33,043 bases of DNA from assembly GCA_014804785.1 (NCBI GenBank), contig JAAUZD010000052.1, forward strand, positions 1 through 33,043. Reading direction: 5' to 3'. The notes beneath the pieces were generated by a model. The model was not told the DNA's origin and ran no database searches. It saw only the letters and a list, made by a program, of their open reading frames with translations. Both the position numbers and the translations under genes were made by a program. Source of the DNA: Lachnospiraceae bacterium (GTDB lineage Bacteria > Bacillota > Clostridia > Lachnospirales > Lachnospiraceae). Within the stretch, counting starts at the first letter, position 1; each line of letters opens with the position of its first letter. Positions 279-15,155 of the stretch are shown here, piece by piece.

Positions 279-479
279 ACCATTAGGTCCAATAAAGCCC
301 ACAATCTCCCCCCGCTTTATCGAAAAGCTAACGTCATCGACCGCTTTTTTTACCTCATACTTTCTGTTAAAAAGATGCTTTACCGTAGCCAACATACCAT
401 TCTCACGTTTTGCGATTTTGTAATATTTCTTTACTCCCTGAACCTCAATTATATTTTCCATGTCAGCCATGACCTCCAT
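273..479 (-). pseudogene. ABC transporter ATP-binding protein, N-terminal fragment cut at Walker A
   Basis: About 68 residues remain, ending EIVGFIGPNGA followed at once by a stop. An intact ATPase continues GKS/TT, so the gene ends in the middle of the P-loop, exactly where the serine-recombinase element begins. The preserved part (ENIIEVQGVKKYYKI, then KAVDDVSFSIKRGEIVGFIGPNGA) is typical of ABC-2 type exporters of the daunorubicin/DrrA group. The start at 479 is chosen because GGAG lies 7 bases upstream; an ATG at 494 is also in frame. Its promoter is intact. The rest of the gene is presumably at the far end of the element, so this is an insertion-disrupted gene rather than old decay. Confidence 0.8.
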
Positions 480-542
480 ATAGATTCTCCACAAACCATC
501 CTTATGTTAAACAAACGCCGCCACACTTTCGCAAGCCAGCTT

Positions 543-7154: not shown

Positions 7155-7895
7155 TCAATCTAAAAACCCCAGATATTCATCAAATATATTAAAGAGCATA
7201 TCCCCAGAACACACAGGAATCTCTGCAGTAGTATCTTTCATCTGAATATACTTAAAAAGGTCGTGCGCTCTCGTAAGCACCAGTACCGGTATCACGTCAT
7301 AATCCGGTCCAAACAGCACTTCCTGATAAGCACTATACTTTGCTGCCTGTAAGACCTCTTCCTCTTCTATCTTATCATTCATTTTAAATTCCAGGGAAAA
7401 TACATATTTCTCTGTAATGACAAGCACGTCCGCATAAATCCTAATAAAGCGGGACTTTTTGATGCGAAGCTCAAAGGCAATCTCCCAATCCTTGCAGCCA
7501 ACTTCTTCCAGATCATTAAATAATGCCCGCATCGTTTGCGCTGTATCCTGAAACGAGTGAAAAAGCCCTCTGGTATCGTTCAAATTACGGCCTATTCGTA
7601 TGCATCCGGACTTCAATGCTTCAAACCATTCACTTTCCTCCAAGTCAAGGAACTCCTGAACGGTGGAATAATAACCGCAGAAATCCTCCAGTCCCCTGTG
7701 TGGTCTCCTCTGACGGATATATCCATGCCAGTTATAACCCTCGTCGCAATAGCATAGTTCATGCATGTAGGGAGATGCATACAGATAGTGATTGATGAGT
7801 CCCTTGTCTTTCTTTAATTTCCGCGCTATTTCTCTTGCCTTTATGCCGTCACTGCTACAGATCAAAGCATAAATATCTCTTTCGATTATGTCCAT
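7155..7895 (-). CDS. Predicted winged-helix protein with a PD-(D/E)XK nuclease domain
   Basis: The N-terminal ~60 residues (IYALICSSDGIKAREIARKL) form a winged-helix-like segment. The C-terminal half carries a restriction-endonuclease-fold signature: Asp156 in YADVLVI, Glu169 and Lys171 in SLEFK, then Gln183 and Tyr187 in QAAKYSAY. This D...ExK...QxxxY pattern resembles the N-terminal nuclease domain seen in some DUF2075 helicases and in RecB-like nucleases. At 246 residues there is no ATPase part, so it is a stand-alone protein. Possible roles are defence against foreign DNA or DNA repair. The family name is not recognised; the fold call is an inference from motif spacing. Confidence 0.6.
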   Translation of the reverse strand: MDIIERDIYALICSSDGIKAREIARKLKKDKGLINHYLYASPYMHELCYCDEGYNWHGYIRQRRPHRGLEDFCGYYSTVQEFLDLEESEWFEALKSGCIRIGRNLNDTRGLFHSFQDTAQTMRALFNDLEEVGCKDWEIAFELRIKKSRFIRIYADVLVITEKYVFSLEFKMNDKIEEEEVLQAAKYSAYQEVLFGPDYDVIPVLVLTRAHDLFKYIQMKDTTAEIPVCSGDMLFNIFDEYLGFLD

Positions 7896-9500: not shown

Positions 9501-10604
9501 TTATGCTGTCTGCCGTAACCCTTCCGCTAAAATATTCTTTGCTGCATTGATATCCCTGTCGTGTATTGCCCCGCAAATTGGACATGTCCACTCCCTTACT
9601 GATAAATCTTTTATATCTGCGTTCTGATAACCGCAGGCTGAACATAATTGACTGCTGGCATAGAATGTATCTGTCTTAATATACTTCCGCCCATTCCATT
9701 CTGCCTTATACTCTAACTGCCGTGTTAATTCGTACCATGATGCATCCGATATGGATTTTGCCAGATGATGGTTTTTTACCATGTTCTTTATCTGTAAATT
9801 TTCTGAAACTATCACTTGGTTTTCGCTGATAATCTCATGGGAAATTTTATGTAGATAATCTTTTCTGGCATTTCTTATCTTCTCATGACAAACGGCTATT
9901 TTCTTTTTCTGCCTGCTATAATTTCCGCTCCCTTTTTCTTTATGTGATAACTGTCTTTGCAGTTTTGCAAGTTTTCTCTCATATTTCTTTATTGTTTTTG
10001 GATTCCCATATTTTGTGCCATCTGATGTGATGCACAAATCCTTAACCCCTAAATCCAAACCTGTATTTCTATCTGTATGCGGCAGTTCTTCTTGCTCCGT
10101 TTCCACAAGAATAGAAACATAATATTTGCCACTTGGAACCTGTGAAACTGTCGCTGACTTTATCTGTCCCCCAAATTCCCTATGGAGTTTTGCCCTTACT
10201 TTCTTTAACTTTGGCAGTTTTATCTTTCCGCCCTCAAAATCTGCCGCAATATTTCCGTTTGTGAAGTTTGTTGTATAAGATTTATGGTTGTTATGCTTGC
10301 TTTTGAATTTCGGATAGCCTGCATGTTCTTTGAAAAATTTCTGATATGCCGTATCCATGTTATAAATAGCATTCGTAAGGGCAAATTTGTCTGCTTCTTT
10401 CAGCCATTCGTATTCCTTCTTTAACTCTCTGTTGCAGTAATTATTACAGTCTGTTTTACTGGCCGGTTTATTTTCTTTTTCGTAAGCTTCTTTCCTATAT
10501 GCCAATGTCTGGTTATAGACAAAACGGCAGCAGCCAAATGTTTTCGCAATCTGCACCTTCTGCTCATTATTTGGATATATTCTGTACTTATATGCTTTTA
10601 ACAT
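9501..10604 (-). CDS. tnpB: TnpB, RNA-guided endonuclease of an IS605-type element
   Basis: 367 residues, full length for TnpB. The N-terminal region [15 protein letters not shown] is the usual start. The split RuvC catalytic residues are all present: Asp184 in [10 protein letters not shown], Glu268 in [11 protein letters not shown], and an Asp in [12 protein letters not shown] (349 or 351). The zinc ribbon has cysteines 321, 324, 341 and 344 (CSACG...CPICG). TnpB uses an omega RNA from the element end to cut DNA next to a short target-adjacent motif and favours retention of the element. It is the only intact gene of the element, so it may persist through homing or by acquired cellular use. 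Start context and frame are clean. Confidence 0.95.
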
Positions 10605-13032: not shown

Positions 13033-13076
13033 GCGTGAATGGTTCATTGCTACGTTCAGAAAAGGAGCTTTTATTT

Positions 13077-13740
13077 ATGGAAACCAAAAATGGTACATTC
13101 TTTTCACCTATGAAAATGACTTTGATTACCTGGGCTGTCATATCATTTGATGCCATTGCGGCAATTCCCTTTATAAACCAGATTGCGGCAATGGCATTGT
13201 CCCTACTTGTATGGTTATTAGGTGCAGCCGGCATACTCCGCATAATAAGGAAGCAAAACAGTCAGCTGTGCTATTATAAGAACAGCCCTTTTGCCAGTGC
13301 CGATCACATGACTTTATTCTTTGTTCTTACAGGCGGAATCAGCATTGCTGCCAGTAATTATTTCTATGGCGGATTATCTCCTCTGTTTGTCAGAGAATTT
13401 CTAAATGGCTATTTGTTATACACCATAAGAAATCTGCTTTATTATCCTGCGGAGGTTCTGTTAATGCTGGAATTACTGATATGTGCCCAAAAAGGCGGCG
13501 AATTAATGACCCAAACGCGTCATATCTCACCCTGCCGGCTTGAAAAAACAAAAATCTCCGCTTCCTTGGGGTGCATTTGCGTTGTTTGTAATGTGGGGGC
13601 TGCCTCATATATTTTATCATGGCCCCGTGGATGGAATGATATCCGCTCTACGTGCATTTATTTACTGTATTCCCTTTTACACATCCGGTAAAAATATCAA
13701 GACAAGCTATATCAGTATGCTGATTTTATGGCTCCTATAA
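13077..13740 (+). pseudogene. Frameshifted polytopic membrane protein
   Basis: The first frame begins METKNGTFFSPMKMTLITW (AAGGAG 9 bases upstream; an in-frame ATG at 13035 touches the operator and is rejected) and has about five membrane helices. Around 13540-13550, in the A-rich stretch CTTGAAAAAACAAAAATC, it loses frame. The rest of the protein (LPWGAFALFVMWGLPHIFYHGP, then GKNIKTSYISMLILWLL) continues in another frame up to 13740. One extra A in the run would explain it. Shape resembles small multi-helix proteins of the CPBP/uncharacterised group, with the conserved-looking LPWG..WGL.H segment now out of frame. Likely inactive unless the indel is a sequencing error. Confidence 0.7.
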
Positions 13741-13775
13741 TGCCTTGCGGTAAATGTTGTTATCCCGTATTTTTG

Positions 13776-13815
13776 AAAAAATCTACAATAGGCAGCTATT
13801 TTCCGTAGCTGCCTA
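13776..13815 (-). terminator. Hairpin ending the downstream abi-associated RNA copy
   Basis: TAGGCAGCTA (13789-13798) and TAGCTGCCTA (13806-13815) pair perfectly over 10 bp. Reading on the minus strand the stem is followed, after 7 bases, by six Ts. It lies directly after the second 51-bp repeat. Confidence 0.6.
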
Positions 13816-13866
13816 CCCGCTAATGGAATATTTGGATTCGGGCACTACCCACGCCTTCCTACGGTC
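13776..13866 (-). ncRNA. Candidate abi-associated small RNA, copy B (downstream of the HEPN gene)
   Basis: Bases 13866-13816 (minus) match copy A at 48 of 51 positions. TATAAT (13878-13873) lies 6 bases before GACCGTAGG, placing a transcript start at the repeat edge, and the repeat ends at the hairpin 13789-13815. Hand folding gives GGCGT paired with GTGCC, GAAT with ATTC, and a closing CCG with CGG. Relative to copy A the change A to G in the first stem keeps a pair (U-A becomes U-G). No open reading frame of note. A conserved RNA motif called abiF RNA has been described beside AbiF genes; membership is likely but unchecked. Confidence 0.6.
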
Positions 13867-13895
13867 GTAATTATTATATTCACATACAAATCTAT
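13867..13895 (-). promoter_or_regulatory. -10-like box of RNA copy B
   Basis: TATAAT (13878-13873) preceded by TTTGTATGTG, a string shared with the promoter of copy A. No good -35 box is seen, so strength is uncertain. It begins just after the abi stop codon. Confidence 0.5.
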
Positions 13896-13900
13896 TATCC

Positions 13901-14854
13901 CTACAAGGACAATATTCTTTCATATAAATCTTTCCAGTTTGCTGACAAAATATTCATCTTATATATATCCACTTTCGTCTCAGATATAAGTTTATCTAAT
14001 TCCTTTGCCAACATATCCGCATCCTTATGTGGCAATATTTTCTTTAACGCATACAATCTTGAATATAGATTCGTATTATCTGGAAGAACATCTGCACTGT
14101 CCCTATTGTCCGGTATTACCACAGAAGAAGTCATGCCTACCAGCATAGAGTGATGTGCACAGTAATTTCTAAGATTTCTGACCGCATCCAGCCATGTATC
14201 CATCTGCTTTGTTACTTCCTTTTTGTAATTATTCCCCGGATATGTATAACCCAATACTTCCTTTCGCAAATCACCACGCAGATACGAATACAGCATTACT
14301 ATGGTCCCCATTTCAAAATATGAAAACGCTACCCACACAGGCAATACATTATTTTGACGGGTTCCTCCTCTACGATACTCTTTCAATTCTGGATGTTTGA
14401 CCACATCTCTTCTCAACTTTTCTTCATCATTTGTTAAGCCGACAAAAAACTTTGCATTAAAAAATGATACATTCCTATTTCTGGTCTTTTTATCCTTCTC
14501 ACTCTTGGTAGGTGTATAGTATTGCCTGTTCAAATAGAAGCCTGCATCTCCGGTCTTTAACGAAACCGCATTAGCAATCACACTCTTAAAATAAACCTCT
14601 GCCTTCTTGCAATACTTAAATAGCAACAATCTCAGTTGCACATCAAAATCGTAAATTGCAAAGAATACTTTTGTATCAGCCTTACTCCCAAACACATTTA
14701 CCTGTGTTAAAAGATATTTTCCATAACGACTTGCTCTAAAATACCCTGCATATCCAAGAAAATCTCGCATCTTTTTTCTTTGCCGGAAGTTCACATATTT
14801 TTTCATCAGCATAACCTGATTTTCCAAATCTATTGGCAATTCAGTATTTGGCAC
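13901..14854 (-). CDS. AbiF/AbiD-type abortive infection protein (Abi_2 family, HEPN)
   Basis: About 317 residues of the Abi_2 family (PF07751). The N-terminus LPIDLENQVMLMKKYV, the FLGYAGYFRASRYGKYLL segment and the FFAIYDFDVQLRLLLFKYCKKAEVYFKSVIANAV core are typical. The HEPN ribonuclease motif Rx4H is present: Arg232 to His237 in LRNYCAHHSM (numbered from the GTG at 14863). The family stops phage infection; related work has linked AbiF to an RNA antitoxin and to the ancestry of Cas13. The start at 14854 (GTG, AAGG 8 bases upstream) is preferred to the GTG at 14863, whose site is too close. It is flanked by two near-identical RNA-like repeats, one with a terminator just before this gene: the architecture of an RNA-toxin system. 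Confidence 0.85.
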   Translation of the reverse strand: MPNTELPIDLENQVMLMKKYVNFRQRKKMRDFLGYAGYFRASRYGKYLLTQVNVFGSKADTKVFFAIYDFDVQLRLLLFKYCKKAEVYFKSVIANAVSLKTGDAGFYLNRQYYTPTKSEKDKKTRNRNVSFFNAKFFVGLTNDEEKLRRDVVKHPELKEYRRGGTRQNNVLPVWVAFSYFEMGTIVMLYSYLRGDLRKEVLGYTYPGNNYKKEVTKQMDTWLDAVRNLRNYCAHHSMLVGMTSSVVIPDNRDSADVLPDNTNLYSRLYALKKILPHKDADMLAKELDKLISETKVDIYKMNILSANWKDLYERILSL

Positions 14855-14876
14855 TCGTAACACCTTCCTTCATAGT

Positions 14877-14904
14877 AAAAAAAAAGAATGGATATACCAT
14901 TCTT
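14877..14904 (-). terminator. Terminator between RNA copy A and the HEPN gene
   Basis: AAGAATGG (14884-14891) pairs with CCATTCTT (14897-14904); on the minus strand it runs straight into nine Ts. It sits 23 bases before the abi start, so it should end most RNA transcripts and let a minority read into abi, as in type III toxin-antitoxin loci. Confidence 0.85.
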
Positions 14905-14960
14905 AATCCCGCCAATGGAATATTTGGATTCAGGCATTACCCACGCCTTCCTACGGTCTA
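14877..14960 (-). ncRNA. Candidate abi-associated small RNA, copy A (upstream of the HEPN gene)
   Basis: The 51-bp unit (14958-14908, minus) starts GACCGTAGGAAGGCGTGGG and ends CCATTGGCGGG, followed by the intrinsic terminator at 14877-14904, giving an RNA of about 80 bases. Stems by eye: GGCGT/ATGCC with loop GGGTA, then GAAT/ATTC, closed by CCG/CGG. It has a proper promoter (14966-14994). Position and structure fit an RNA antitoxin that holds the HEPN protein inactive. Confidence 0.65.
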
Positions 14961-14965
14961 TAATT

Positions 14966-14994
14966 AGACTAGCACATACAAAACAAAACTTCAA
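14966..14994 (-). promoter_or_regulatory. Promoter of RNA copy A
   Basis: TTGAAG (14994-14989) and TAGTCT (14971-14966), 17 bp apart, place the start about 7 bases downstream, at the first base of the repeat unit. The spacer holds TTTGTATGTG, also present before copy B. Confidence 0.6.
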
Positions 14995-15017
14995 CCACTT
15001 TTTCAAAAAAATAATGG

Positions 15018-15155
15018 CTATGTAGTTGACGGTTCAACTTCCGTCTCATTAGCTGTAACTTCCTCCGATACATCAGGACACTCCACCCAAATGTTGTTAT
15101 ACCGTATTTGGGGGAGAAATCTCCTAAACTTTTTCGCCAAATCATACGATATATA
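15018..15155 (-). other. Short open stretch resembling a gene end (possible remnant)
   Basis: A 46-codon open stretch without an ATG reads YDLAKKFRRFLPQIRYNNIW and then an acidic tail EEVTANETEVEPSTT before a stop. Composition is protein-like, so it may be the C-terminal scrap of a gene broken when neighbouring elements arrived. The family is not recognised and chance is not excluded. Otherwise 14995-15244 shows no gene. Confidence 0.25.

Follow-up and report, generated by a model that had tools for sequence, protein, structure and literature searches.

AbiF toxins and their companion RNAs

In the AbiF–RCd22 system of Clostridioides difficile phi027, an RNA gene lies upstream of the toxin gene, which encodes an Abi_2 protein with a HEPN domain, and ends at a terminator between the two (PMC12373285). 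Acting in cis and in trans, RCd22 both represses AbiF and neutralises it, and its stem structure is important (PMC12373285). It contains two motifs of the Rfam abiF family (RF03085) in one upstream transcript, and repeats of a motif within one such transcript are described as a key feature of type III systems (PMC12373285). AbiF is also a proposed ancestor of Cas13, with its companion RNA as a proposed foundation of the CRISPR RNA (PMC12737573); the passages of that review considered here mention no second RNA gene for PbAbiF–AbiFr. Here we describe an abi gene flanked by two copies of a 51-bp unit in a 33,043-nt stretch of DNA from a Lachnospiraceae bacterium (assembly GCA_014804785.1, contig JAAUZD010000052.1, positions 1 to 33,043 of the forward strand), which is called the window below. 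The locus is probably an AbiF-type (Abi_2, HEPN ribonuclease), type III-like toxin–antitoxin system in which the antitoxin RNA would be encoded twice, as an attenuating leader and as a free-standing gene. AbiF toxin–antitoxin systems are themselves already known; new here would be the type III-like AbiF locus with two antitoxin RNA genes.

The features of the locus are as follows (model R1 scores belong to rows of its training alignment).

14966..14994, minus strand: promoter-like boxes of the upstream RNA (by eye), TTGAAG (14994-14989), 17 nt, TAGTCT (14971-14966), 7 nt before the unit
14908..14958, minus strand: upstream RNA unit, 51 nt, 81.4 bits with model R1
14877..14904, minus strand: upstream terminator AAGAATGG-TATAT-CCATTCTT with T-run, nearly invariant among relatives
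13901..14854, minus strand: abi gene (Abi_2 / AbiF / AbiD, HEPN), GTG at 14854 the preferred start, longest open reading frame from GTG at 14863
14153..14170, minus strand: HEPN active-site motif RNYCAH (R-x4-H), read from the sequence
13873..13878, minus strand: TATAAT, the -10 box of the downstream RNA, 6 nt ahead of its unit
13816..13866, minus strand: downstream RNA unit, 51 nt, starting 34 nt past the abi stop, 79.9 bits with model R1
13789..13815, minus strand: downstream terminator-like hairpin TAGGCAGCTA..TAGCTGCCTA; relatives keep the hairpin but not its sequence

On the minus strand the order is thus promoter-like boxes, a 51-nt unit, a hairpin with T-run, abi, TATAAT, the second 51-nt unit and a different hairpin. 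A first-pass annotation of the window had reported two near-identical copies around abi, each ending in its own, differing hairpin, with the terminator of the upstream copy directly before the gene. All of this holds: the copies agree at 48 of 51 positions (94%), the upstream hairpin with its T-run occupies 14904-14877 and the downstream hairpin 13815-13789. The interpretation built on these observations is supported in part. In the assembly itself (57 contigs, 3.97 Mb), BLAST finds the repeat above noise only at these two sites (next matches at E >= 0.25), the covariance model of the unit finds the same two sites and no others, and there is a single Abi_2 gene.

The Abi protein

The open reading frame at 13901-14863 (minus) matches Pfam Abi_2 (PF07751) with E 7.6e-34 and 118.1 bits, against a cut-off of 25.6, over profile positions 2-182 of 184. 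PADLOC calls the protein AbiD. The intact Rx4H motif noticed at first pass is present as RNYCAH at 14170-14153, and its R232 and H237 do not vary among 13 aligned proteins, that of the window included. The protein fits the PbAbiF fold, with 20% sequence identity to PbAbiF (PDB 8vz6; review PMC12737573). The spacing of the ribosome-binding site and the relatives suggest GTG 14854 as the likely start.

Twin units in the relatives

Relatives of the protein were taken from 299 genomes of the family (5 match, the window's own included), from viral contigs, from a collection with one genome per species (12 loci) and from genome G1071 of another family; the closest loci lie mostly in Lachnospiraceae assemblies. 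The count below covers the 19 loci in which both flanks of abi are at least partly readable, with duplicates (L007-L009, L065, L067, L068) removed and L014, cut before the upstream side, excluded. Both units are found in 18 of these 19 (the window, L010-L013, L015-L020, L022-L026, L063 and L087); in L022 and L025 the contig end cuts the upstream unit. The aligned proteins reach down to 50% identity, and the twin units stay with abi to about that level. The comparison with other Abi_2 loci proposed at first pass shows the twin RNA layout to be the rule in this AbiF clade. The RF03085 loci differ. In 13 canonical abiF loci with an Abi_2 reading frame and sequence on its downstream side (10 bacterial, 3 viral), a single RNA is present per locus, and searches at E <= 1 give no further copy.

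Structure of the RNA unit

The alignment of the unit comprises 49 units (44 distinct), twin and solo, and includes the 31-bit match L061/L079. The outer stem CCGU/GCGG is paired in 99.4% of cells and the second stem GGAA/UUCC in 97.2%. Changes on both sides of a pair occur in 26 cells of these two stems, with a shuffled mean of 6.1 (0 of 500 shuffles as high) and at most 7 in slid versions. With its covarying stems CCGT/GCGG and GGAA/TTCC, the unit is, on comparative grounds, a structured RNA.

In one drawing, a flush GGC/GCC stem with a 3′ bulge containing CCAA is paired in 99.2% of inner-stem cells, without covariation, and other drawings fit too. That drawing resembles the canonical abiF RNA, with its covarying outer stem, flush CGC/GCG and bulge with ACCA. 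Like the RF03085 RNA, the window RNA lies upstream of Abi_2 and has an outer stem and, in this one possible drawing, a short inner stem and a 3′ bulge with CCA. The five-pair stem GGCGT/[AG]TGCC drawn at first pass survives in its GGC/GCC part; its two outer pairs are formed in 37 and 20 of the 44 distinct sequences and fail in 7 and 24, and the five-pair version is rejected.

Promoters and terminators of the two copies

The 24 nt after the upstream unit, which hold the terminator just before abi, have a mean pairwise identity of 90% in 16 twin loci. After the downstream unit the value is 38% in the same loci, with a hairpin still formed. With eight diverged representatives, the figures are 83% upstream and 30% downstream. 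The units themselves are more alike within a locus than across loci (0.868 vs. 0.786, permutation p 0.0004, with eight hand-picked representatives), as would be expected if a single protein had to accommodate both.

Boxes of the -10 type were scanned 4-9 nt before the unit and compared with shuffled versions of the 60 nt concerned; since the loci are related, no probability is attached to the averages. Upstream copies (17 loci) reach 5.29 of 6 letters on average vs. 3.76 in the shuffles, and downstream copies (18 loci) 5.56 vs. 3.79. The promoter string TTTGTATGTG, reported at first pass as shared by the two copies, is present in the window but is not kept as a string in the relatives, where a -10-like box recurs instead.

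Proposed function of the two RNA genes

A structured RNA gene lies directly upstream of the toxin gene with a terminator between them, as in type III systems and in AbiF–RCd22. The repeats of an antitoxin motif within one upstream transcript are absent; the window has one motif per unit and one unit on each side of the gene, whereas RCd22 has its two motifs together. In the arrangement that we favor, the upstream RNA would be transcribed as a leader and in most cases end at the conserved terminator, with read-through now and then yielding the toxin mRNA, which the terminator would keep rare relative to the RNA. The downstream gene, with a promoter that transcribes no toxin, would make the same RNA, so that the toxin would always meet antitoxin. 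Both RNAs would act by binding to the HEPN protein, which would stay silent as long as they are bound. Once infection lowers the RNA, the freed HEPN dimer would cleave RNA, and growth would stop.

Several observations weigh against this arrangement. L021 keeps abi with the upstream unit only, and in L016, L024 and L026 in-frame stops interrupt the translated abi range, with both RNAs intact. The promoter boxes of the upstream copy in the window are weak: the best score is 7 of 12, no better than shuffles (group shuffled mean 6.98), and, in place of the TAGTCT chosen by eye, the promoter script picked TCTAAT at 4 nt from the unit, with a total at chance level. An antiterminator formed between ATATTCCATT of the unit and the terminator arm was considered, and its duplex energy (-6.5 kcal/mol) is equalled in 0.11 of shuffled arms, so it is not supported. 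The inner helix fits three drawings and its pairs hardly covary. RF03085, to which the first-pass annotation had pointed, matches neither repeat: there is no match in the window at the gathering cut-off (37 bits), nor in 13700-15150 at E <= 10, where only two chance-level hits appear. Model R2 of the canonical abiF RNA does not find the units of the window either. The kinship of the window RNA with known AbiF antitoxins rests, in consequence, on position and similar shape. Nor did RF03085 score above the cut-off in any of 10 records that carry the window-type RNA, 7 of them solo and 3 together with abi. Because the RNA fails two narrow tests, the RF03085 score and the repeats within one transcript, it is not filed as RF03085; it likely works like an AbiF antitoxin all the same.

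Solo units in chromosomes and alternative explanations

The unit model matches 13 of 397 genomes of the family and 4 of 398 drawn from the phylum, the window's own included in each case; two of the phylum matches are weak (L061/L079, 31 bits; L062, 24.5 bits), and these rows are kept out of the counts of solo copies. Several matching genomes hold one unit and no abi, and L047/L078 keeps the upstream unit with only about 35 codons of abi. In the single-contig genome L042/L069, a solo unit combines an upstream-type promoter region with a downstream-type terminator (taggcagct..agctgccta), and L046 and L051 look similar by eye. This is what would be expected of a leftover of recombination between the two copies, or of an empty site. 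Accordingly, the 51-bp copies might be homology arms by which a segment made of terminator, abi, promoter and unit recombines into and out of resident solo units, with the twin layout mainly a by-product. The conservation of the inner terminator alone between loci points the same way. Yet both copies are present in 18 of 19 loci with compensatory changes and -10 boxes that homology arms would not need, and the segment carries no gene but abi. Flanking direct repeats exceed shuffled scores in only 3 of 16 loci (the window among them), so that target-site duplication is rejected as a general feature. We regard the homology-arm explanation as unlikely.

The downstream unit could also be independent of abi, a portable RNA gene placed 3′ of toxin, defence or phage cargo genes and acting as an anti-Abi RNA or as some other regulator. 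Nine solo loci of bacterial genomes or prophages have a gene on the same strand about 17-550 nt upstream of the unit. That gene is of the toxin or defence type in four of them: PBECR4 (L069), PemK (L073), AbiEii (L074) and HIRAN/HipA (L077, the same locus as L064). In L075, ORF6N is one gene further away. In prophage-like contigs the unit moreover precedes a portal gene whatever the cargo: in L077 and L096, with HIRAN/HipA and a 118-aa gene as cargo, the portal gene follows immediately (Pfam, PHROGs), L092 has by eye a portal-like gene after the unit as well, and in L012 and L013 the whole twin cassette, with abi, is followed by a similar-looking gene start (by eye). Against such independence, Pfam shows no family for the adjoining gene in L070, L071, L072 and L076, the count of four in nine stands without a background rate, and the units of a locus resemble each other more than those of other loci. 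Independence of the downstream unit is on balance quite improbable, and the placing of solo units 3′ of toxin or defence genes is kept as a lead. That the upstream copy is a cis-acting attenuator only, with neither RNA acting in trans, is very hard to maintain. The conserved terminator directly before abi would suit it, as would the lowering of abiF transcription in cis by RCd22 (PMC12373285), but the second copy lies past the end of abi, behind a -10 box of its own, and has no way of attenuating that gene, and solo copies occur in 12 viral or plasmid records without any Abi_2 gene to regulate. We retain the reading with a leader and a free-standing antitoxin gene as the probable one.

Solo units in viral contigs and a plasmid

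Thirteen viral or plasmid records contain the unit with no abi next to it (L064, L066, L080-L083, L092-L096, L098 and L086, the last a 603-kb Jeotgalibacillus plasmid, CP009417). Chance matches are rejected, the E values running from 2.7e-9 to 4.8e-19. In searches of the whole records, many of which are fragments and some possibly prophages, an Abi_2 match is absent from 12 of the 13; in L096 there is one about 5 kb from the solo unit. In L086 the unit lies 8 nt after a transfer RNA (tRNA), in a region where 21 tRNAs are called; in L098 it lies between tRNA-Arg and tRNA-Tyr, and in L093 it is 66 nt from a tRNA. A window-type RNA has a same-strand tRNA within 100 nt in 3 of the 13 records, vs. 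1.14 expected by random placing (12 of 2000 placings as high). Ahead of the solo units of these records no promoter signal stands out (-10 score 3.77 vs. 3.38 shuffled), so that the RNAs might be processed out of longer transcripts. In L066 and L083, both the window-type and the canonical RNA occur close together without Abi_2; their matches to R2 are not independent, both stretches being in its training alignment.

Two of these records show sub-threshold matches to other RNAs. The noncoding region of L066 that holds the solo RNAs has, at 430-513 (minus), a match to the hepatitis delta virus-like ribozyme of F. prausnitzii (33.6 bits, gathering 44). In L081, two matches to 6A RNA (7712-7765 and 7790-7833, plus; 30.9 and 26.7 bits, gathering 41.2) come shortly after the solo unit.

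Canonical abiF RNAs in viral contigs

The RNA of RF03085 is also found solo in viral contigs, in part beside tRNAs, as is the window-type RNA. Cyanophage S-CREM1 and three further phage genomes are reported to carry an abiF small RNA, whose role is unconfirmed (PMC9964418, PMC12197685). A pattern of the abiF core is present in at least 120 stretches of viral contigs, and the following counts come from the 80 listed, all with R2 matches. Because the core letters are fixed by the pattern, their conservation is no evidence, and 32 of the 80 loci are also in the training of R2. The outer stem, which the pattern leaves free, has at least 6 contiguous pairs in 64 of the 80 listed (chance about 2.5%). 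Whole-record searches found Abi_2 in 4 of them (0 of 50 and 4 of 30) and none in 76; as above, the records include many fragments and perhaps some prophages. Among the 76 listed without Abi_2, 13 have a same-strand tRNA no more than 100 nt from the RNA, vs. 2.95 expected by random placing (0 of 2000 as high). Two canonical abiF RNAs each occur in L104, L133, L165 and L173, with starts about 50 nt apart in the last three. In bacterial genomes, L028, L029, L030, L036 and L040 have a canonical abiF RNA with no Abi_2 reading frame in the stretch around it.

RNAs of this kind have precedents in phages. Phage PhiTE carries its own version of a type III antitoxin RNA, pseudo-ToxI, which suppresses abortive infection after expansion of its repeats (PMC3475682). 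The RNA and the toxin differ from those considered here, and the function, shown for pseudo-ToxI, is read from occurrence for the solo units. The RNA anti-CRISPRs (Racrs) are likewise solitary viral mimics of a host defence RNA, but of CRISPR repeats and not of an AbiF antitoxin (PMC10651486). Phage tRNAs may themselves be anti-defence (PMC10264068). Solo RNAs without a toxin gene in phages, partly beside tRNAs, are compatible with possible RNA decoys like pseudo-ToxI; they could also be regulators of phage genes or remnants. Tentatively, and with a little less than even confidence, we propose a wider picture. Phages would widely carry stand-alone AbiF antitoxin RNAs, of at least two families that do not recognize each other by score, singly, side by side or in tRNA arrays, as decoys that silence the HEPN toxin of the host. 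The antitoxin RNA of one AbiF lineage would, in addition, have turned into an independent second gene behind the toxin. A literature search that did not take in the original AbiF–Cas13 paper or the 2017 abiF-motif paper gave no description of the twin layout or of AbiF decoys in phages.

Surroundings of the locus

A 21-bp direct repeat (20 of 21 identical), at 13752-13772 and 15089-15109, brackets the whole RNA–abi–RNA cassette. The gene downstream of the cassette (about 13035-13775, plus) looks frameshifted or interrupted by eye. Its open frame ends at 13691, and coding-like sequence with an in-frame stop continues to the 21-bp repeat; a Pfam search of that open frame gave no family. A few kb from the abi locus, at 9501-10604 (minus), there is an IS605-type OrfB / Cas12f1-like TNB (TnpB-like) gene.

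Significance

In the twin loci, an RNA gene would have departed from the leader of a toxin to become an independent second gene, a natural experiment in the passage from a cis antitoxin to a trans-acting RNA. The putative solo AbiF antitoxin RNAs of phages are the wider lead and the more interesting part. The phage solo copies would make RNA-based evasion of AbiF directly testable and, if the proposal is true, some phage tRNA arrays would hold a further class of anti-defence RNA.
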